Positions 610 through 16,692 of a stretch of DNA of 64,000 bases are shown in pieces. A program made the translations under genes and the position numbers. Where the stretch lies: contig CP110830.1 in assembly GCA_026239495.1 (NCBI GenBank), positions 1,426,001 through 1,490,000 of the forward strand. Direction: 5' to 3'. The first letter of the stretch is position 1; each line of letters opens with the position of its first letter. This stretch comes from Spiroplasma phoeniceum. GTDB taxonomy: Bacteria; Bacillota_I; Bacilli_A; Mycoplasmatales; Mycoplasmataceae. A model generated the notes under the pieces. That model was not told the DNA's origin. It did no database searches and saw nothing but the letters and a program-made list of their open reading frames with translations.

Positions 610-1425
610 GTGAAAAAAATTGAAATCAAAGATTTATTTGTTTCTGCTGATAATGATATTATTTTAAATGGTTTAAATTTAACTGTTAATGTTAATGAAA
701 TTCATGCTTTAATGGGGCCTAACGGAAATGGAAAATCAACTTTATTATCAACAATTATGGGGCATCCTAGTTATACTGTTGAAAGTGGGGATATTTTAAT
801 TGATGGGGAGAGTATTTTAAACAAAACGGTTGATGAACGAAGTAAAATGGGGATATTTTTTGCAATGCAATCACCAGTTGAAATTTCTGGAGTTTTAAAT
901 TTAGATTTTTTAAAAGCAATTATTAATGCTCATCGTGATTCACCAATTAAATTACCAGAATTATTCCAAGATATTAACCGTAATATTAAAAATTTAAAAA
1001 TTGATGATAGTATGACTCGTCGTTATTTAAATGCTGGTTTTTCAGGAGGAGAAAAGAAAAAAAATGAGATTTTACAATTAAATTTATTGAGCCCATCTTT
1101 AGCTTTAATTGATGAAATTGATTCAGGTTTAGATGTTGATGCTTTAAATGTTGTTAGTAGTGAGTTAAATAAAATGCGAAATAAGCATTTTTCTGCAATT
1201 ATTGTGTCCCATTATGATCGCTTTTTTAATTTAGTGCAACCAACACATACTCATGTTATTGTTAAGGGTAAAATTGTTAAAAGTGGAGATTATAATTTAA
1301 TTAAAAAAATTAACGAAGGGGGATACGAATGATTATTACAAGAATTAGATTTAAAAGCAGAAAATAAACAAAGGGGTGTTAAACCTTTAGCGGGAATTGG
1401 GTGTGCTGCTCAAAAAGGTAAGTAA
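610..1425 (+). CDS. sufC: Fe-S cluster assembly ATPase SufC
   Basis: ABC-type ATPase of the SufBCD scaffold; it powers rearrangement of SufB-SufD during Fe-S cluster assembly in the cytoplasm. Walker A is GPNGNGKST near residue 36, the ABC signature is FSGGEKKK, and Walker B is ALIDEIDSGLD. With TGA read as Trp the frame continues past 1332 to TAA at 1423, giving 271 aa, close to the family length; a standard-code reading would lose the last 31 residues. The start is GTG with a strong AAAGGAGG site. First gene of a tight sufCDSUB operon; sufD follows after 2 bp. Confidence 0.95.
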
Positions 1426-1427
1426 AA

Positions 1428-2258
1428 ATGCAAGTTTTAATGAATGAACAAAAAATTATTGGTGACAATTTTAATATTGATGCAACAACACCAAAATTAA
1501 CATTTACGAATAATAAAGCTAGTGAAGTTATTAATATTAATTTTGCTATTAATCTTGTTAATGAAACTTTTTTGTTTTTTTTAAATTTAACTTCAGAAGT
1601 AACAATTAACTACAATATTCCTGCTAATAGTCAAATTAATATTATTAATATTTACAAAAATCGTGAATGTGAACAAATAGCTAATCTTTTTTATAACTTA
1701 TTAGAAAAAGCACAAGTTAATATTTATCACTTAAATATTGTTAATAGTAGTATTACTGAGAACATTACCTTCAATTTGCGGGGTAAACGTAGTGCTATTA
1801 AATATTATTTGGCGAGTCTGTCAACACATGAATATCATAAAAATGCGATTATTTATGCTCATCATTTAGCCCCAGCAACCGAAAGTGAAATTAAAACTTA
1901 CTCAATTGCAAAAGATAATTCATTACAAACTGTTAAATGTACTAGTCATATTGAAAAAACAATGGGTAAATCAGAAGCTCATCAAGAATTACGGTTACTA
2001 GTTTTTGATAAAACTTCAAAAGCAATTTCTGATCCGATTTTGTTGATTGATGAAAATGATATTAAAGCAAGTCATGCTAATGCGGTTGGGATGCTAGACC
2101 TAGAGCAAATCTTTTATTTACAAACAAGAGGTTTGACAATAACGCAGGCTCGAAAATTAATTTGTATGGGTTATTTTAAAAATGTGATTGATGCAATTGA
2201 GGATGAAGAATTACAAAAAAATATTATTGATGAAATTGATACAGAAATTGGAGAATAA
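1428..2258 (+). CDS. sufD: Fe-S cluster assembly protein SufD
   Basis: Scaffold subunit pairing with SufB and two SufC to assemble Fe-S clusters. At 276 aa it is clearly shorter than typical SufD (roughly 400 aa), with the N-terminal part reduced; the C-terminal half keeps the family pattern, ending DLEQIFYLQTRGLTITQAR and then the ICMGYF helix also seen in SufB of this operon. It lies 2 bp after sufC and 2 bp before sufS, so translation is probably coupled. Identification rests on operon position and the C-terminal motif; the N-terminal 120 residues are divergent. Confidence 0.85.
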   Translation: MQVLMNEQKIIGDNFNIDATTPKLTFTNNKASEVININFAINLVNETFLFFLNLTSEVTINYNIPANSQINIINIYKNRECEQIANLFYNLLEKAQVNIYHLNIVNSSITENITFNLRGKRSAIKYYLASLSTHEYHKNAIIYAHHLAPATESEIKTYSIAKDNSLQTVKCTSHIEKTMGKSEAHQELRLLVFDKTSKAISDPILLIDENDIKASHANAVGMLDLEQIFYLQTRGLTITQARKLICMGYFKNVIDAIEDEELQKNIIDEIDTEIGE

Positions 2259-2260
2259 CG

Positions 2261-3490
2261 ATGATTGATTATAGAGAAATTAAAAAACAATTTCCTTTTT
2301 TTAAAAATAATTCTGAGCAAATTTATCTTGATAGTGCTGCTACTAGCTTAAAACCACAAGTTGTTATTGATGCTATTAATGATTATTATACAAATTATGG
2401 AACTAATCCGCATAATACTGATAGTGATTTGGGATATAAAACAAATGTTCAATATGAACTTGTTCGTCATAAAATTCAGCATTTTATTAATGCTAAAAAG
2501 GTTTCAGAAGTTATTTTTGTCCCTGGAGCAACTTATGGATTAAACCAAATTGCATATGGTTTAAGTTCAAAGATTACAGCGGGTGATGAGATTCTAATTA
2601 CAAAACAAGAACATGGCGCAAATATTTTACCGTGATATCGGATAGCACAAGAAAAAAAAGCAGTTGTTAAGTTTTTACCAGAAATAAATTTTCAAATTGA
2701 TTTAAAACAATTAGCAACAGTTATTACTGCTAAAACAAAGATTGTTTCTTTTGCTAATGTGCCAAATATTTTAGGATATGAAAATGATCCAACAACAATT
2801 GTTACAATGATTAAAAAAATTAATCTGGAAACAATTGTTGTGATTGATTGTGCACAGGGTGTTGTTCATATGCCAACTGATGTTCAAAAGTGAAATTCTG
2901 ATTTTATTACTTTTTCAGCCCATAAAATTTTTGGTCCAACTGGAATTGGTATTTTATGAGGAAAAGAAGAATTATTGCTACAATTACAGCCGTTAATTGT
3001 TGGTGGTGGTATGAATACTCGAATTGATAGTAATGGTTTAGATTATAGTTTAAAAAAATTACCCGGCCGGTTAGAAGCGGGCTCAGCTAATATTGCTGAT
3101 ATTTTTGGTTTTGGAGCAGCAATTGATTTTGTTAATAGCCTTACTTTAACAGAAATTATTAAATATAATCATCAATTAAAACAATATGCAATTCAACAGT
3201 TTAATAAAAAATTAAAAGATAAAGCAATAATTTATAATCCTGATAGCAAGGGACCAACATTAGTTTTTAATATTAAAAATGTTTTTTGTCAGGATGTTAC
3301 AATGCATTTGGGAAGTCGCAATAAGATTACTGTTCGGAGTGGTGATCATTGTGCGCGGTTAATTGGTACTATTATTCCAGATAAAAATACGATTAGAGTT
3401 AGTTTTTCAATTTATAATAGTTATGAAGATATTGATTTGTTAGTATCGGCACTTGCAAATGAGAAAGATTTTTTAGGAAGGTTGGTTTAA
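2261..3490 (+). CDS. sufS: Cysteine desulfurase SufS
   Basis: PLP-dependent class V aminotransferase that takes sulfur from cysteine and passes it as persulfide to SufU. The 409-aa frame crosses TGA codons at 2633, about 2890 and 2957, all read as Trp. The PLP lysine sits in SAHKIFGPTGIGIL near residue 221 and the catalytic cysteine in RSGDHCARL near residue 362. The N-terminus YLDSAATSLKPQ is typical. Stop and the next start are adjacent (3490/3491), indicating coupling with sufU. A single complete enzyme, not two fragments. Confidence 0.95.
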
Positions 3491-3943
3491 ATGGAATTTA
3501 ATAAAAATGACCCAATGTTTTTACGACAAATTATTATGGACCATTATTCAGAACCACAATACAAAGGTTTAACAAAGAAACCAACAGTTTATTCAATCCA
3601 TCAAGCTTCTGAATCATGTATTGATGATATTTATTTAGAATTAATGATTGAAGGGAATAAAATTATAATTGCTCGGTTTGACGGTGTTGGTTGTGCAATT
3701 TCAACAGCATCAAGTGACATTATGGCACAAGAACTAGAAGGAAAAACAATGAAGGATGGTTTGGCAATTATTGAAAATTATTTAGCAATGGTTTTTGACA
3801 AACAATATGCCGAGAACAAGTTAAACGATTTAATTGCTTTTATTAATATTGCAAAACAACCTAATCGAATTAAATGTGCGACAATTGGTGTTACTGGTTT
3901 TCAAACATTATTATTAGATTTATTAAAAACAGATGATGATTAA
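3491..3943 (+). CDS. sufU: Sulfur relay protein SufU
   Basis: Small zinc-binding acceptor of the persulfide from SufS, in Firmicute-type suf operons that lack SufE. 150 aa, normal length. The family's cysteines are visible in ESCIDD, GVGCAIS and IKCATIG, each at its expected place. Start ATG directly abuts the sufS stop, so it is probably translated by re-initiation. No SufA or SufT homologue is seen in the operon. Confidence 0.92.
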   Translation: MEFNKNDPMFLRQIIMDHYSEPQYKGLTKKPTVYSIHQASESCIDDIYLELMIEGNKIIIARFDGVGCAISTASSDIMAQELEGKTMKDGLAIIENYLAMVFDKQYAENKLNDLIAFINIAKQPNRIKCATIGVTGFQTLLLDLLKTDDD

Positions 3944-3963
3944 TACCAAAGGAGGTCTTATTA

Positions 3964-5376
3964 ATGCCAAAATTAAAGCAGGAAAAAGAAATTAAAGAAA
4001 TTTCTACTTATAAATATGGTTTTAATGATGGAGATATTTCTTTCTATAATAGCGGGAAAGGTCTTAATGAAACAATTATTAATGAAATTTCAGATCATAA
4101 AAATGAACCAGATTGAATGCGAGAATATCGGTTACAGTCATATAATAATTTTTTAAAAATAAAAAATCCAAGTTGAGGGCCAAACTTAGAATTTATGGAT
4201 TTTGATGAGTATATATATTATATTAAACCAACAGAGCATATTGCAACAAAATGAGATGAGGTTCCTGAAAAAATTAAAAAAACCTTTGACCGGTTAGGTT
4301 TACCAAAAGCCGAACGTGAATATTTAGCTGGAATTAAAGCTCAATATGATAGTGAGCCAGTTTATGGAAGTATGTTAAAAGAAGTTGAAAACAAAGGAAT
4401 TATTTTTTTAGATTGTGATACCGCATTACGTCAGCATTCAGCGTTATTTAAAAAATATTTTGGAACATTAGTACCAAATACAGATAATAAATATGTTGCT
4501 TTAAATGGAGCTGTTTGATCTGGTGGATCATTTATTTATGTTCCAAAGGGAGTTAAATTAGAAAAACCATTGCAGGCTTATTTCCGAATTAATTATCAGA
4601 ATAGTGGTCAGTTTGAACGCACATTAATTATTGTTGATGATGATGCAGAATTACACTATATTGAAGGATGCACAGCACCAATTTATTCTCGCGATTCTTT
4701 ACATGCTGCTATTGTTGAAATTTTTGTGGGAAAAAATGCAAAAATGCGTTATACAACTGTTCAAAACTGGAGTGATAATGTTTTAAATTTAGTAACAAAG
4801 CGTAGCATTGTTGATGAAAATGGTCAAATGGAATGAATTGATGGTAATATTGGATCAAAAATTAATATGAAGTATCCGAGTGTTATTTTAAAAGGAAATA
4901 ATAGCAAAGGGAAATGTATTTCAATTGCGGTAGCAAAGGGAAATGTTATTCAAGATGCTGGTTCAAAAATGATTCATTTGGGAAAAAATACTTCTTCTAA
5001 AATTATTTCTAAATCAATGACTTTTAATGGTGGGACAGCAAACTATCGTGGGTTAGTTCATATTGGACCAAAAGCACAGTATTCAAAAGCTAGGGTTGAA
5101 TGTGATACTCTAATTCTAGATGGAAAATCACATTCCGATACAATTCCTCAGAATAAAGTTTATAATAATCAATCACAAATTGAGCATGAAGCAACAGTAA
5201 GTAAAGTTTCTGGGGAACAATTATTTTATTTACAAAGTCGTGGTTTATCAGAACAAGAAGCTTTGGAAATGATTATTATGGGGTTTTTAGAACCATTTAC
5301 AAGGGAATTACCAATGGAATATGCAGTTGAATTAAATCAGTTAATTAAAATGGATATGGAAGGTAGCGTTGGTTAA
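3964..5376 (+). CDS. sufB: Fe-S cluster assembly scaffold SufB
   Basis: Main scaffold subunit on which the nascent cluster is built with SufC and SufD. 470 aa, the expected length, crossing many TGA-Trp codons. A strong AAAGGAGG ribosome site precedes ATG 3964. Typical features are [18 protein letters not shown] in the middle, the beta-helix core ([16 protein letters not shown]) and the C-terminal [17 protein letters not shown]. Its stop overlaps the start of fthC by one base. Confidence 0.95.
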
Positions 5377-6336: not shown

Positions 6337-7443
6337 TTATTTTCTACTATCTAAAAAATCATAAATAGCTTTATAATTTGGTTCATTTCCAATTGGATTA
6401 ACAATTTCAAGATATTCTACAATATTATCTTGGTTTAAGATAATAACTACTCGTGGCAAAATTTGAAAAGCAGTAAAAACTAATCCTGTCTTTGTCCCGA
6501 AATCACGATAATTATAATCTGACACCAAAAAATGTTCTTCATCTATAAAAGATTTACAACATCTTTCTTGCGCAAATGGTAAATCACGTGAGACTGTGAT
6601 TAATCGTGCATTAGGATAATCTTTCATATTTTTGTTAAATTTAATAGTTTGAGTATAACAAACACTTGTATCAATACTTGGAATTACCGATATAACTTTA
6701 TATTGTGTTTTAACATCACTAAGGTGAAAATCACTCATATCAGCATTGGTTCCTTTAAATTCTAACTTATCACCAACTTTAATAATATCTTGAGTAAAAT
6801 GTGAAAATACATCCCCACCTAATTTAAGTGCTCCCATTTTTATGGCCTCCTCTTTTTTTATTTTTTCTTCATTATTAACGAGATGAGCTCCATCTCCATT
6901 AATAATAATACTATTATTTTTAGTTACAGTAAATTCTGCTTCGATAATATTTTGTTCAAAATAATCATTATTCTGATAAACATCGCTTAGTTTAATTACA
7001 CGCTGATTTGTAGAGCCAATTAATCGTCGTTTTTTATCTAACTTTTCAATAATAAATGGTCCATCAATTAATATGTCAATTTTAGATAAAATTGCTGGAT
7101 GCTTTTCTTGCAATAGTTCATATAAAAAACCAGAAAAAACAATTACTGTTAAATTATTTGTTTGGCATAAAGTGACTAGTTCTAAAAGCGCTCGTGGTTG
7201 AATAAATGGTTCTCCCCCCAAAATGGTAATCCCTTCAATTTGAAAGCGCTCTTTAGCATCTCTAATCGCTTTAAAAAGGTCGCTGACTTCCATTACATTC
7301 CGATTAATGAGAGGAATCATTTCCTGATTACTACATCCTTTGCAATTAATAATACAACCTTGCATTCATAATGCGAATCGTTTCCCAGGCCCTTCAATCG
7401 TTGTAAAAGAAACAAAACGATTAAAATTAATTAAATTAATCAT
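6337..7443 (-). CDS. Radical-SAM activase fused to thiol peroxidase (NrdG-Tpx)
   Basis: A single 368-aa frame with two domains. Residues 1-200 are an NrdG/PflA-type radical-SAM activase: the [4Fe-4S] cluster motif is CIINCKGC near residue 30 and the SAM motif ILGGEPF follows. Residues 203-368 are a thiol peroxidase (Tpx): VISVIPSIDTSVCYTQT carries the peroxidatic Cys and SRDLPFAQERCC the resolving Cys region. No glycyl-radical enzyme is visible in the window, so the activase target is unknown. An AGGAGG site at 6846-6851 lies 8 nt before an in-frame ATG (6837) at the start of the Tpx part. Shifting frame by one just upstream gives an immediate TAA, so this may be a recent fusion of two genes by a one-base indel. 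Last gene of the operon. Confidence 0.82.
6837..6853 (-). promoter_or_regulatory. tpx: Internal ribosome binding site and start for the Tpx domain
   Basis: AGAGGAGG followed by 8 nt and ATG, inside the continuous activase-peroxidase frame. Such a strong site within a coding region of this genome suggests that thiol peroxidase is, or was, also translated alone (166 aa from 6837 to 6337), the normal Tpx length. Confidence 0.65.
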
Positions 7444-7446
7444 TTT

Positions 7447-9267
7447 TTATTTAAAACAATATTCAATTTGATGACCATTTACTTGTGCTAATATTGTTTC
7501 TCCAGCTTTAAATTTAGTTTGATTTGCAAAAATAAATGAACTCAGCCCATCAACGACGTGCTTTTCAATACTATTTAACAAATCACGACCACCTTTTTTA
7601 TCATCGGCATCCTGAATAATAATTGGTAAAATTTGTGGTAAATCCATAAATTCTAATTTAATTTTATATTTTTCTCAAACAGCTGTTTGAATGGGTTGTA
7701 ATTTTTGTGTAATTAATTTTGCTTTAAAATTAATATCCTTAATAAAATTAAACGGAATAATATTATTTCCAATTCGCCCTAATAATTCTGGTCGTTTTAA
7801 TTCAGTTCGAAAATGATCAGATACTTTTTGAATAAATTGCTTTTCAATTTCTAAAAATGATAAATTATCATCAACTTCACTTGCACCAATATTTGAAGTA
7901 AAAATAATAAACGAATCAGAAAAAGTAACAGTTTGGCCTTTATTATCAGTTAAACGACCATCTTCTAAAATTTGTAAGAATTTATCTAAAATTCGCGGAT
8001 GGGCTTTTTCAATTTCATCAAATAAAAGTACACTAAATGGTTTTTCTTTAATTGCATTTGTTAATTGTCCACCTTCTTCATAACCAACATAACCAGGTGG
8101 TGCGCCAATTAATTTTTGTTCGCTTGCTTCTTGGTTATATTCCGACATATCAAACCGAATACATTTTTTTTCATCACCAAATAAAAATTTAGCCAATGCT
8201 TTTGCTAATTCAGTTTTTCCTACTCCGGTTGGTCCGACAAAAAACAATGTACCTTTTGGTTTTGTTCGTTTTGATGAATATTGAACACCTGATAATCCAG
8301 TAAAAGCTTTATAAACAACATTCTTCACTTTTTCAATGGCATGATCTTGCCCAATAACTCGTTTTTTTAATTCTTTTTCAATAGTTGCTAATTTTTCATA
8401 ATTCATTTCTTCTCATGGCGAAACTTTATCACCGTATTGATAAGAATTTAATAATTTTTCAAATGGTAAGCGTTCTGAAATATTGTTTGAAAACTTAATT
8501 AATTGATAAACTTCTTTCAAAGTTCATCCTTCCATCGTATCATAAATATCTTGTAATTTTAAAATATCAGTATTTAAATCTTCGGTAATTTTAAAAAAAT
8601 TCTTATTAGTTAAAATGAAGTTTTCTCGTTCTTCACGATTTGGTTTTGTTAAAGTAATTGTTGTTACATCTGGATTATGCAAATAAAATGAAGTTGGTAG
8701 TTTTCCAACACTATTGGTGACAAAAATAATAGCCGTATCAAAATCAATTATTTCTGATTGATCAAATTTTTTATCTCGAAAAGCTTTACTTAATGAAATT
8801 AAATTAACACGTTCTTCTTCACTTAAGGTCTGTTCATTAGAAAATAAATAATCAGAAAAGTCAGCAATAAAAGCAGCTTTTTTAGAACTTACAACTAACA
8901 TTTTACGACGAACAATGGTAAAAAATTCTGCTAAAGTTGGAAATTGTCCCGTTGGATCATTTTTTTCTTCATTTGCATTTTTAATTACTTCTTGACCAAA
9001 ATCATATGCTTCACCTTCTTTGCTCTTTTGTCGTGTTTCTACTGTTAATGTTAAATTTTTCAGATTTCCTCCGCTTAAACCATCAATCCGGTCTCACATA
9101 AAAATATCATTAAAACCTTTTTCTCTTAATAATCCAAATAATCGATCTTTTAAACCAATATAGCCAGTATTTGTTTGATAAATATCATTAACATTGCCTT
9201 CAAGAATAACACATCGTTTAATTCCAATTTGATTTTTTAACTTATCTAAATTACTTTTTACACTCAT
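7447..9267 (-). CDS. AAA+ ATPase with ClpB-like C-terminal domain
   Basis: 606 aa when TGA is read as Trp. Residues ~310-530 form a Hsp100 D2-type AAA+ domain: Walker A GPTGVGKTELAK near 345, pore loop GAPPGYVGYEEGG near 388, Walker B VLLFDEIEKAHP near 415, then a C-terminal D2-small domain. Residues 1-260 look like a second AAA+ fold without Walker A (CVILEGNVNDIY, later IIFVTNS and a sensor-like TLKEVYQL). No Clp N-domain, no ClpB middle coiled coil and no obvious ClpP loop, so it is not classic ClpB. Likely an ATP-driven remodelling factor working with its operon neighbours. It starts 58 bp after the 365-aa gene and ends 3 bp before the activase. Confidence 0.8.
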
Positions 9268-9325: not shown

Positions 9326-10423
9326 TTATTTCTTTTTTGATTTACTATAAATTTGAATCTTTGCCTGATTCATAATTTTATCAGGATTTAAATAATATTT
9401 TTTAATTTTTTTTGATAAAGAGATATCATACATTGATAAATCGTTAATAAATGATTGCTCGTCTATATCATGTGCGTGACCTTCATAACCTTCGAATTTA
9501 TATGTAAAGCGCCCATCTAAATATACTTTAAAAATTGCCTCTTCTCCGGTTACTTTTTTTGCGTAAACAATAACTAAACTATCTTCATTTTCTTTCGTAA
9601 TACGAATATCATTACTATCAACAATAAAACTACGTTTCTGAATTGCTTGTAAAATTGATGTAATAGCATGTTTCCGCGCTGATTCATCTAATTGTTTATT
9701 AATAATTTTATTTTGTAATGCTAAAGCTTTTGCGTTTAAAAAAGCAGTATCAGCAGCTGGCATTTGGACAAATTCTTCTAATGCTGGAGCTAATTCTGTA
9801 TTAACAAATTTATCATCACTAATTTGTTTTTTAAAACTACTAAGATATTGTTTTTTTAAAAAATCAGTTGAAGTATGATAATTTTTAACTTCTGTTTGAA
9901 CAAGGTCAGAAATAGCCTCTGGGTTTAAATTAATGAAATGATTCTTATTTGTTTTAAAAAAATTCATAATAAAAGCTTTTGATTCATTATCATAAAACGT
10001 TGCTATTAATTCATGTTCTAATTGTTGATAATTTAAATTAACTCGGTTTTTTAAATTAGATAACCGTTGTTTTGTTTCATCTTCAATTACTTTTATTTTC
10101 AAAACTTCAATTTTTTGTTGAATTTCTGCTAAACGAAGGGTTTGTTGTTCCAAGAAAAAATTAACTCTTTTTGCCAAGGCTAATTCAACATGTTCAACTT
10201 TACTAAATTCTTTAACTAACGGGTTCTCCTCTAAATCAGTTAAAATTTGATCTAACTCAACTAAATATTGTTCAATTTGTTGACAATTTAACCCACTAGC
10301 ATCAATTTCTTGTAATTGTTGTAATAATAATTTTAAATTATCTTTAACAAAATTAATATTTAAATTTAATCGTTCAATCTTTTTTTGGTAATTATAAATT
10401 ACTTGTTCAACACTCATACTCAT
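9326..10423 (-). CDS. Coiled-coil protein of unknown function in the helicase operon
   Basis: 365 aa. Residues ~5-150 are strongly predicted coiled coil (heptad-rich Leu/Lys/Glu/Gln). The C-terminal ~110 residues look globular with beta strands and the stretch FKVYLDGRFTYKFEGYEGH, then a Lys-rich tail ending KSKKK. I do not recognise the family. ATG 10423 directly abuts the stop of the 791-aa gene (10424), and its AGAGG site lies inside that gene, so translation is coupled. It may be a structural partner of the AAA+ protein encoded next. Confidence 0.75.
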   Translation of the reverse strand: MSMSVEQVIYNYQKKIERLNLNINFVKDNLKLLLQQLQEIDASGLNCQQIEQYLVELDQILTDLEENPLVKEFSKVEHVELALAKRVNFFLEQQTLRLAEIQQKIEVLKIKVIEDETKQRLSNLKNRVNLNYQQLEHELIATFYDNESKAFIMNFFKTNKNHFINLNPEAISDLVQTEVKNYHTSTDFLKKQYLSSFKKQISDDKFVNTELAPALEEFVQMPAADTAFLNAKALALQNKIINKQLDESARKHAITSILQAIQKRSFIVDSNDIRITKENEDSLVIVYAKKVTGEEAIFKVYLDGRFTYKFEGYEGHAHDIDEQSFINDLSMYDISLSKKIKKYYLNPDKIMNQAKIQIYSKSKKK

Positions 10424-12799
10424 TTATATTAACACCTCTTCTAATTCAAGTTTTATTTTTTTTAAAGCATCTCGATTTTTATTATCATTTTTTTCGTTTC
10501 TTGCTTTCTCACAATATAAATATAATGTTAATTCTTGATAAAGTTGCATAATTTGTTTATACTTATTTTTATCAAACACATCTTTTAAAACAAATAATTT
10601 TTCATTAATATGTTGTACAAATTGATGTTTTGTTTTTAAAAATGGAGTAATTTTTTCTTCCATTAAATTCATTAAATATAATGCTGCCTTATCAAAAGAA
10701 CATAAATTAAGATATTCCTGAAATTTGCTTTCATAATTAAACATATTTTTAAATTTAATTGCCTTATATTTTATTTCTAATTGTGACAAAGAATAAAGTA
10801 ATTGAATTATTAATTCATTACTATTGTTAATATTATTGCAACGTTCTTTAATAATCTCAACTTTATCTCATATTTCTTGTCAATGTAGTTGTAATCCACT
10901 TGTTTCTTGCTTTTTCATTTCTTTACAATACTTAATATATTTTTCAGCATAACTATATAAATTAATTAATAAAGTACTATTTTTTTTTAAAGTTGTAGTT
11001 GTTATTGAATCAAATAATTCACGATGTAAATCATTATTATTGATTGCAAAAAGAAATTTATCCAAAATTGCAAAAAGATTTTGATTTCAAATTTTTTCAA
11101 TAATCAATGAATCTGCAATATTAGTTAATGCTAATAATTGGTTTAAAAAAACATCGTTTTTGTCATAAAGTTCTTGTAACATATTTAAAACTTCTTTATT
11201 TGATAATAAATTATTATTAGTTAACACTTGATAAGCTTTAATAATATTTTTTTGCAATTTTGCTTGTTCTTTCGTGAGGGCAATTAAAGTTTTATGCATT
11301 TTATTAAAATAATTTGGTTTTAAATTTAAATTACTTAAAATTTGTTCAGATTGATATAAAACATTAATTTTATTATTAAAATCATTTATGGTCATACTTT
11401 TCAATATATTATCAAAAGTTTCTTCATTATTATTTAAAATATCAATTAAATAACAGTAAATAAAAACATTTTCAATTTGATTAGTATTAATTATTTCATA
11501 AATATTTGCCTGTTGACGATTTATTAAATTTTTTAATTCCTCTAAAATTTTATTAAATAACATCTGACTATACTTCGGAAGAAATTTTTGTGCTGTTATA
11601 ATATTACGTTTTAGCATAATAAGTTCTGTTGGTTGTAATATGTAAAGTTCAGTCTCATTTTTATCATCGATGAATAAAGTTAAAAAATTATCATTAATTA
11701 TTAAAATCGCACTAGTTAAATAAAAAATTGGAATTGAACCAGTTAAATCATGCATTGTAGTTGTCTGCTCAGAATTAACAAAAATAATACAACTAATATT
11801 ATTATCATAATAATATTTATTATCTAAGACTGCTTTTGGTTTAACACTTGCTGCATTAATAATTATAATTCTCGGATTTATTAATGTAGAAGTAATATAA
11901 CGCGGATCTTGCTGATAGTCACTTTCTAATATATTTTTTGCTACTTTTTGAAGATTTAAATTAAAATTATCCCTTAAATTTTTAGCCATTTCGGTTAAAA
12001 AATAATCAACAATTTTTGTTTTTAAATTAACATTATATTCAATAATTTGTTGTGATTGGTGGTCATTAATAATTTGAATTTTAATATCTTTAAAAGTGGT
12101 TAGGGACAATATAACTTCTTTTTCTTCATAAGCGTCAATCAATAAATTGTTAATTTGATTATTATTATGGTAGATTTCTTGCGTATTATTAGTGCGAATT
12201 GAAGTAAATGTCGTATCAGCATTAAAAATATTATTTTTATTAATATTTAACTTGTACTTTTCTAACAAATGAAATAAATCTTCACCATTAATAATTGGTT
12301 CTTGTTCCGGAACAATAATTAAATCATTGCTATTTTTTTCTAATAAAGATAATTGTTCATTATTTATATATTTTTCGCCCGAAAAAATATTAAAATAAAA
12401 ATTAATAACTGCTTCACGATTACTATTTTTACTTAATAAATAGCCCCGTTCTAATTCCGTTAACGCTTCTTTTGAAATGTAAAAAATTCCAATTGGTCGA
12501 TCAATTCAATCCTGTCCAGCAGAACTATTTGCTAAATAATTTAATGATGTTCGCTTATTAATTTCAATAATATTTTCTTTTTCAATTAAGTCCTTTAGAC
12601 ATTCTAGATAAATTTTAAAATTAAAAATTTGTAATTCATTCTGTAAAATATCAGCTAATGATTTTTCTTTATTGGGGTAATTAGTAATAGCGTTTAAAAT
12701 TACATACTGAAAAAAAGCTATTTTTTTTGGTGTTTGATAGCTAACTATTGTTTTTAATTTTTTCCAATTTTTATAAACTTTTACCATTCCTAATTTCAT
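10424..12799 (-). CDS. 791-aa protein of unknown function in the helicase operon
   Basis: One continuous 791-aa frame crossing TGA-Trp codons at about 12505, 11086, 10878 and 10862. The N-terminal ~110 residues look like one or two winged-helix segments (KKIAFFQYVILNAITNYP, then YLECLKDLIEKENIIEI). The middle has alternating beta and charged segments; the C-terminal third is helical. No P-loop, no metal-binding cluster and no membrane segment is apparent. The chosen start (MKLGMVKVYKNW) has GAGG 8 nt upstream; an alternative in-frame start at 12844 would overlap the helicase by 25 bp. It follows the helicase by 20 bp and is coupled to the 365-aa gene. Unrecognised family. Confidence 0.75.
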
Positions 12800-12819
12800 G
12801 TTTTTACCTCGAATTCTTA

Positions 12820-15800
12820 TTATAATAAATCTTTTGCACTTCAAACAAGACCATAACTATCAATAATTCGTAAAATTTCATAATATGCTTTAATTGTTTT
12901 TGTAATATTTGGATTAGCAATTGTTGGAATTTCAACATCAATATTAGTAAAAAAACTAACTGCTCCAATAATAATTAACATATTTTTTGCCCTTGAAAAT
13001 GCAACATTTAACCGTTCGTATTTCTTAATAAATTCTTTATTAGCATTTAATTGCTTACGAGGATTGCGAACTGTATTAACAATAACAATTTCGGTTTCTC
13101 GTCCTTGATAATCATCAACTGTTGAAACTTCTACTTTAATATTTTTAAATTTTAAACTTTTAATAACTCTTCGTATTTTTTTAACATGTAGACTATAAAA
13201 ACTAATAACTGCAACTTTAGGTTGTTTTTTTAATTTAACTGTTAAATTATTATATCCTGCTTCAATTAATTCTAATGTTTTTATCGTTAAATCAACTTCT
13301 AAACAATTAAAAAGACTCGTACTGCCACTTTCACCTTGTTCATAAACAAAATTAATATTAGTTTTATCTTTTGATGAATCAATTCAATAAATTGCTTTAT
13401 TACTATCAAAAATTTTTATACCATCTTTATTTTCAACAGTAATATAATGTTGTTTTTCATTATTTTGATTAGTTTTATCACCTAACTGCAACTGATTTTC
13501 ATAAAAAACATTTACAATTCGCATAATATCTTCATGACTACGATATTGATTAATTAGAATTTCTTTTACTGAATCATCACATTTTGAGATAATTTTTTTA
13601 AATAATGAATTAGTTACTAATTCTAAAAAATCATTATAACTATAATTTTGGTCATAAATTTCATTAATTAACGCAACATCTTCTTCTTGATATGGCATAA
13701 GTGGTGGTAATTGCCGATAATCACCAACTAAAATAACAGTTTTACCATATACTAATGGCATAAAAATTTCCATTGGTGTTAACTTACTTACTTCATCAAT
13801 AATAACAACATCAAAAGCAAATTTTTTAATATCAATATCAGAAATATTATAATCTCGTAAAACTTTATTTTTACTTTGTGCATATGATTGGTTTGAAGTC
13901 GCAGTCATTGCAACAACATTGACACTTTCTTGTAAAAATTGATTAGCATAATTAATTGTATCTCGTTCCATAGCCGGTGTGAAATGATTAGTTTTAATAT
14001 TCTCTTGTGTTAAAAAATCTGATATCTGATAATTTTTATTTAAAAATGTAATCATATTATTTACAAAATTAAACTTTGTTGCTTTTTCTTGGAGAACAAA
14101 ATTAAGGTCCTGTTCAATTTTATTAATTTCTTTATTAATTTCATTAATTGTTCTGCTAATATCTTTTACTACTAAATTTAAATTAAAAATTGTATTAATA
14201 CTGTTAACAATGTTTTCAACTTCAACTTTTAGAGCATTAATTTTATGATTTAATGTTCCAATTTCAATTTCTAAATAAGAAATTTCTTGGTCATATTTAT
14301 CTTCATTAATTTCACTAATTTTGTTTTGATTAATAACACTTTGTTCTTCATATTGCTGTAATAATTGTTCAAGGTCATTTTTAAATGCTTCTTTCTGCTT
14401 TTGAAACACAATATTTTCTTGTTTTAATGTAACTTGATTCTTTAATTCTAAAATTTCATTTTGAACAGCAGTTAATTGCTCCATTCAATCATCATCACGT
14501 AAGTCTTGACTAACTTGTTTTAATGTTGCTAATTCTATCTCCTTATCCTTTAACAACCTATTATCAGTAGTAATTGTTAATAGCTTTTTGTATGTTTCTG
14601 TTACTGAATATGAATTATCAATTTGAAATCAAAATTTTTTTTGCAACAACTCCCCAAAATGTTTGTTAAATAATCGGACAAGATCCGGAGTTGAAGTAAC
14701 TATTCCAGCTCAATTAATATTAACTAAGAAATCTAATAGATTACGAATATTATTAATATCAATTGTTAATTTTCGATTATCTTCTAAATATTGCAATTTT
14801 TGATTAATGATTGTTTCTCGCTCAGTAAGTAATGTATTTAACTTTTGGGTATAATCATTGTAATCATTAATTTCTTTTTCTAACATTTTAGCATTTGCTT
14901 TTAATTTTTGTAGTTCATATTTTTGATTTTCATAATCACTTCCAATTCCATTTCATTTTGTTAAATATTGTCGTGATAAATGAGCATAAATAAAACAATA
15001 ATTATTAAAAATTAATTTATCTGGATTAAAATCATTAAAACGATTTTTTTTACGAAATTCATCACTTGTTAAGCGTAAAGGAATCAATAAAGGTGTTTTA
15101 AATAATCTTGTTAAAACATTGTCAATTGCAGTATGATTTTGTGAAGAAATTAAAACTTTTTTTCCTAATTTAGCATATTGATAAACTAATTCAGCAATAA
15201 ATTCAGTTTTCCCTGTCCCTGGTGGACCTTGCAGTAAAAAAATATCTTGTGAGTTTAAGGCTTTTGTTATTGCTTTATGTTGATTTCCATTTAAATTATT
15301 TGAAGCAAAAATTAATTGTTCTTCCATAATTAAGTTAGATTGTGTCTTTAATTTAATATCTTCAATATTAAAGATATAATTAATTAAATAAGGATTTGCA
15401 ACATCATTTTTGCTAATTTTATCTAAAATAACATTACTACGTCGAAGTAAAGTTGAGTCTCCTTTTCCAATATAAGTTAAATAACCATAAGAAGGTATCA
15501 TTTTATTTGATTCATTAAATGATATTTCATCCTCATTTTTTATTTCATAAAAGCAATTAACAATTTGATATTGTTCTAATTGATTAATAGTTACTTTAAT
15601 TGTTTCATGGTCAATATCACTTTCTTGCATAATATTATTTTCAAGCATATATATTTTGATTAATTCTTTTTTAAAATCATAGATATCTTTTTGTTGCATT
15701 TTTGTTTCAGAAATATTAATACCTAAATCATAAATATCTGCTCCATCTTGAACATAACTTTCACTAAAATTAAAAGAAAATAGTGTTAATGGAACATCTT

Positions 15801-16692
15801 TTTGATATGTACGATTAATTTGTAAATTAGCAAGACTTAAATTTTTTAATTTCTTTAATATTGAATATTTATCTAAATTATCCAACAATAGCTCTAATTC
15901 TACAATAATTATTTCCTGAAATAAATGACTAATTGTTAAATTTTTATTAGTAAAAGTTTTTTTATCAACATATCAAAAATTATGGGATAAAAATCTTACA
16001 TCATGAAATTTTTCACCGATTGGAGCTGTTTTTGGAATTTTAATATATTCTGTTAATTTCCGGTTTAAATATAAACAATAATTATTACGCTTATATTCTA
16101 AGTTTTGTTCTTGAAATCGTAAATATTGTAACCATCGTTCTTTTTCTTCGGCAAAAGATGAAGTCAAAAATTTCATATTTGCCATAACATTTGAATCAAA
16201 AATAGTTCGTAATTTTGCTTCATCAATCCGAAAATTATCAGCAATTTCAAGCACTACTCCAGTAGCTAACGTTTCAAATTCTTGTTTTCTCTTTTCCATT
16301 GCTGTTAAAAAAATATTTTTAACATTAACAATGCCAATTTCCGGATCAATATCTCCTAAGATTGTTAATGATAAGTTTGAGTCGAACATTTGATCTAGCA
16401 AAGTAATTGATTTAAAACGAATTAAAATATCATAAAGCTTCTTTTCTGATCCTTTTTTATCTTTTTTAATTTTTGCCTGATCATTAATTAAACAAACAAA
16501 AAAATCAGCAATACAAATATTATGCTTTAAAAAAGTATCCAGGCCTTGAACTGTTGTAATATTTTTTAACCGAAGGTTTTTAACATCATCATCAGTAAAT
16601 TTACTTTTTTTATTTGTTAAAAAATACAAATTTAACAATAAATTCTTATTATTATATTTATCGCCCTGAATTGTAAATTCTGTCAATGTCAT
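12820..16692 (-). CDS. Giant SF1 helicase, UPF1/DNA2-like
   Basis: A single 1290-aa frame; it looks like several pieces only if TGA is taken as stop. Motif I LLQGPPGTGKTEF lies near residue 488, motif II VVIIDEVSKL near 965, motif III GDYRQLPP near 990, motif IV NQYRSHEDI, motif V STVDDYQGRETEIVIVNTVR near 1190 and motif VI NVAFSRAKN near 1230: superfamily 1, UPF1-like. About 470 residues separate motifs I and II, most of it long coiled coil (roughly 580-880), an unusual insertion. The first ~300 residues are unrecognised. First gene of the operon, with its own promoter and an AGAGGGTG site. Expected role is ATP-driven unwinding or translocation on DNA or RNA. Confidence 0.88.

Follow-up and report, generated by a model that had tools for sequence, protein, structure and literature searches.

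A radical-SAM and thiol peroxidase reading frame with an internal ribosome site in Spiroplasma phoeniceum and its relatives

Here we report an open reading frame of Spiroplasma phoeniceum that joins a radical-SAM protein to a thiol peroxidase (Tpx) and carries a ribosome site and start codon for the peroxidase at the junction. The frame lies in a stretch of 64,000 nt (the window; contig CP110830.1), to whose first letter the coordinates below refer. The fusion is a real but lineage-specific oddity, and with a probability of roughly 0.7 we read it as a tolerated stop loss in the citri group in which the internal start was retained, so that a 42-kDa fusion and a free 19-kDa Tpx would both be expected. 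It is caught together with intermediate states in relatives (adjacent with a stop, overlapping, fused), and would make a clean case of a fusion arising while the free second product is kept, the downstream start surviving. No description of the radical-SAM/Tpx fusion was found in the literature searched, most subscription journals being outside its coverage.

The fused frame runs from an ATG at 7443 to a TAA ending at 6337 and contains one TGA read as Trp (translation table 4); the plus strand across 6337-7443 has many stops. The initial annotation, which gave no strand, had placed the open frame exactly here, on what proves to be the minus strand. Its features are as follows.

6337..7443, minus strand: fused open reading frame (368 aa, 42.1 kDa predicted, table 4)
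6898..7443, minus strand: NrdG/PFL-AE-like radical-SAM domain, residues 1-182 (Pfam Fer4_12 2e-30, Radical_SAM 2.4e-8)
7333..7356, minus strand: C30-x3-C34-x2-C37 motif, expected [4Fe-4S] ligands (Cys conservation)
6838..6897, minus strand: variable charged tail or linker, residues 183-202, ...NNEEKIKKEEAIK (dN/dS, indel comparison)
6846..6851, minus strand: AGGAGG, internal Shine-Dalgarno of tpx, 8 nt before the ATG (6837-6835)
6337..6837, minus strand: tpx frame from its own ATG, 166 aa, 19.0 kDa thiol peroxidase (Pfam Redoxin 2.9e-12)
6658..6660, minus strand: Cys262, expected peroxidatic Cys (SIDTSVC; alignment with 1psq and 2jsy)
6556..6558, minus strand: Cys296, expected resolving Cys (DLPFAQERCC; alignment with 1psq and 2jsy)

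Pfam assigned residues 16-151 to Fer4_12/Radical_SAM and residues 224-359 to Redoxin/AhpC-TSA. The two halves had been said to match the stand-alone lengths of their enzymes, in agreement with the full-length radical-SAM relatives (196-207 aa) and the Tpx relatives (160-168 aa). An AlphaFold2 model of the fusion built from four sequences had a mean pLDDT of 37 and was discarded as of insufficient quality.

The same fused frame is found in six of the 14 genus genomes searched, the window's own included (G000, the window genome, G001, G003, G006, G012 and G013; S. phoeniceum is among them). In the sister group, made up of S. poulsonii and two more genomes (G002, G005, G011), the two genes overlap out of frame, the radical-SAM stop falling 11 nt past the tpx ATG in another frame, a net difference of 4 nt. 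In the outgroup pair (G004, G010) the genes lie next to each other in one frame, separated by a TAG two codons (6 nt) before the tpx ATG; the 8-nt spacing and the frame are those of the fused clade, where the codon that is TAG in the outgroup is ATA. The radical-SAM gene has no tpx behind it in G007 and G009, and the search of the genus genomes gave no radical-SAM match in G008. In the Tpx tree the fused clade had a support of 76, fused plus overlapping 98 and all copies behind the radical-SAM gene (tpx2) 95, with the adjacent copies outside, an order that agrees with that of the junction states. The fusion was not seen outside Spiroplasma among 99 relatives, in one scan of genome contigs and in one of plasmids.

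These comparisons bear on the choice offered by the initial annotation, which had allowed for either a true fusion or a one-base indel that removed the first stop. Six genomes support its reading of an in-frame fusion that carries an internal ribosome site, and both fused and split forms are present in related spiroplasmas, so that the objection it had anticipated, relatives with separate genes only, fails. The fused frame is therefore real, but a one-base indel is not the simplest history: because G004 and G010 already share the frame and the 8-nt spacing, one stop-to-sense change would suffice. To judge from these junctions, the simplest account of the fusion is that two co-operonic genes lost the stop codon separating them.

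The AGGAGG with 8-nt spacing and ATG described earlier at the junction is present as stated (6851-6846; ATG 6837-6835) and spans codons 198-203 of the fused frame. The pattern AGGAGG-N4-10-ATG occurs six times in the window against 0.49 expected, a count reached by none of 100 shuffles. Before the tpx ATG, AGGAGG is exact in 10 of 11 genomes at a spacing of 8-9 nt, the exception being AGGAAG in G001. The fused frame reads it as GAG GAG, a codon that makes up 10% of the Glu codons in the window, and both GAG codons of the signal are retained in five of the six fused genomes. RNA folding there did not stand out (z -1.97). No Shine-Dalgarno precedes the radical-SAM start, whose ATG lies 3 nt after the stop of the AAA gene upstream; because of this and of the retained AGGAGG, free Tpx is expected beside the fusion, and both fused and free Tpx are probably made. 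In-frame internal initiation giving a full-length and a C-terminal product is known from the SctQ family (YscQ, SpaO; PMC4295842, PMC13059759), which resembles the present case in its one frame, its internal start and the C-terminal product expected beside the full-length one, but the proteins are unrelated and the dual products of Spiroplasma are predicted only.

On our preferred reading, tpx2 would have come to sit directly behind the radical-SAM gene, the last of a five-gene operon, in an ancestor that the mirum, poulsonii and citri groups share, and would have had a strong ribosome site of its own. Loss of the radical-SAM stop codon in the citri group would then have left one open frame. 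Ribosomes starting at the radical-SAM ATG, probably through coupling to the AAA gene whose end is 3 nt upstream, would make the 42-kDa radical-SAM-Tpx fusion, and those initiating at AGGAGG-ATG the free 19-kDa Tpx. Tpx enzymes are normally dimers, so that fusion subunits could pair with free Tpx.

Mean dN/dS among the fused genomes was 0.08 for the radical-SAM half, 0.72 for the linker (residues 183-203) and 0.28 for the Tpx half. Counted over independent pairs, N:S in Tpx was 26:11 for fused pairs and 12:48 for unfused ones (Fisher P 1.3e-6), with the close kinship of the fused pairs inflating N:S; the radical-SAM half shifted likewise, though less strongly and not significantly (8:29 against 3:30, P 0.20). 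The Tpx half is under looser constraint in the fused clade, the contrast being exaggerated by this kinship, and the constraint pattern speaks against strong selection on the fusion, which is most likely a tolerated stop loss with Tpx still working rather than a selected redox coupling.

A functional fusion maintained by selection, in which the tethered peroxidase shields the O2- and peroxide-sensitive radical-SAM cluster or senses peroxide while free Tpx completes the dimer, seems unlikely. It is compatible with the retention of the frame in six genomes without any linker indel, a point that tells against the stop-loss account, and with two active sites that are intact by motif; in the window genome and G012, moreover, the Tpx half is the only intact Tpx found. 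Such selection is difficult to reconcile with the linker value of 0.72 and with a Tpx half that is looser, not tighter, in the fused clade; in other genomes that carry the radical-SAM gene, Tpx is separate from it or not adjacent, and free Tpx is probably the main product. The coupling of an O2-sensitive protein to peroxide removal suggested in the initial annotation is possible but unsupported, a guess. Somewhat more doubtful is the idea that the peroxidase was recruited as a tethered guard or sensor on the radical-SAM subunit of a five-gene helicase/AAA+ system not yet described, with the proportion of fused and free product set by the internal start.

It is improbable that the frame is open yet seldom crossed by ribosomes, slippage on an A-run or early termination giving mostly separate proteins. 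The strong downstream ribosome site would suit this, as would the A-rich run and the out-of-frame TAA that had been pointed out in AAAAAATAAAAAAAG; the TAA is indeed present in the window genome, but three of the six fused genomes have ATGA in its place, so that it is no conserved stop, and the run is likewise unconserved. A sequencing or assembly indel in the A-rich AAAAAATAAAAAAAG that removed the stop between two normal genes is refuted by conservation: six genomes share the open frame and differ in their A-runs near the junction (e.g. GAACAAATGAACAAAG), which excludes a chance read error.

The earlier identification of the second half as a thiol peroxidase is borne out by the Redoxin/AhpC-TSA domain, by a match to structure 1psq (E 7e-30) and by both catalytic cysteines, which are conserved. 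Its domain, structure match and Cys motifs place it in the Tpx type, and it is by sequence an atypical 2-Cys thiol peroxidase, hence a predicted peroxidase; the thiol peroxidase model NF001808 scored 3e-35 and 121 bits, just below the 123-bit cut-off. It shares the fold family and the SIDTxVC and DLPFAQxRxC motifs with Tpx of S. pneumoniae (1psq) and B. subtilis (2jsy), and also their length when its 166 aa are counted from the internal ATG, but, unlike them, can also be read as the C-terminal part of a fusion with radical SAM. The tpx2 gene is a paralog of the genus tpx1, which in the window genome (G000:C1:634000-640000, about 2937-3465 therein) has an in-frame TAA and a frame change, with intact copies in relatives. 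No further Redoxin match beyond tpx2 and the broken tpx1 was found in the window genome, and the search of relatives found no other tpx in G012. Because the other tpx is broken or not found there, the tpx2 product may matter in these two genomes.

The first half has the C-x3-C-x2-C motif and the domain of the radical SAM superfamily, its C30, C34 and C37 are invariant in 13 aligned family members, proteobacterial ones included, and it is matched by the PFL-AE structure 3c8f (E 7.5e-8). With the NrdG / pyruvate formate-lyase activating enzyme family it shares the C-x3-C-x2-C, GGEP and GSxNQ motifs and the Fer4_12/Radical_SAM domains, but it scored 97.3 bits against the NrdG equivalog cut-off of 126.1 and also stayed below that for PFLA. 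Neither NrdD (PF13597) nor the glycyl-radical domain (PF01228) was matched in the window genome, whereas positive controls and relatives (20 for NrdD) were matched in the same searches; in G004, a separate NrdG-like match adjoins NrdD. The label 'NrdG-like activase' given earlier is thus misleading, and an activase role is not supported. A further difference is that the Spiroplasma gene is the last in a helicase/AAA operon, which moves a gene that would be called NrdG from ribonucleotide reduction into a conserved operon. This radical-SAM family is paired with an AAA ATPase elsewhere too: on Paenarthrobacter plasmid pC (4564-8257), a related 4Fe-4S single-cluster protein comes after an AAA ATPase and a DUF2997 protein.

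In this conserved operon the radical-SAM gene comes fifth, after genes for a helicase, a PIN-type protein, a protein without assignment and a ClpB-like ATPase.

12820..16692, minus strand: gene 1, superfamily-1 helicase-like AAA_11/AAA_12 protein (Pfam, synteny)
10424..12844, minus strand: gene 2, 806 aa, relative of the PIN-domain protein of other modules, PIN part undetectable (alignment; no Pfam match); counted from a TTG, the homologous ATG start lying near 12799
9326..10423, minus strand: gene 3, 365 aa, no Pfam family, conserved C-terminal domain (aligns with proteobacterial gene 3; synteny)
7447..9267, minus strand: gene 4, ClpB-like AAA+ ATPase (Pfam AAA_2 2e-53, synteny), ending 3 nt before the radical-SAM ATG

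This order of five genes, with radical SAM at the end, is repeated in the spiroplasmas examined and on proteobacterial plasmids, those of Leisingera, Photobacterium, Moellerella and Polaromonas (genes 1, 3, 4 and 5 by BLAST in the first three, Polaromonas by annotation only). Gene 3 occurs in 35 of 245 genomes of the phylum searched, 30 of the 35 belonging to the window's own family. The plasmid operons differ from that of Spiroplasma in gene 2, since the window protein has no Pfam match to a PIN domain and resembles the N-terminal part of the plasmid PIN proteins, whose C-termini are unmatched (Moellerella gene 2: PIN_4 4.6e-22), and in that tpx behind gene 5 was seen in spiroplasmas only. 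No description of the operon was found in the same literature search, with its limited coverage of subscription journals. PADLOC matches to the operon genes (MkoA, PDC-M37B, DolB, pVip) were rejected as memberships, since they are consistent with the broad similarity of helicases, AAA proteins and radical-SAM proteins. A role in conflicts between mobile elements is compatible with the location of the operon on plasmids beside integrases and an ArdA gene, but is only a lead. Elsewhere in the window (610-5376, plus strand), ABC-ATPase, cysteine-desulfurase-like and scaffold-like frames have, judged by eye, the look of a suf Fe-S assembly cluster.
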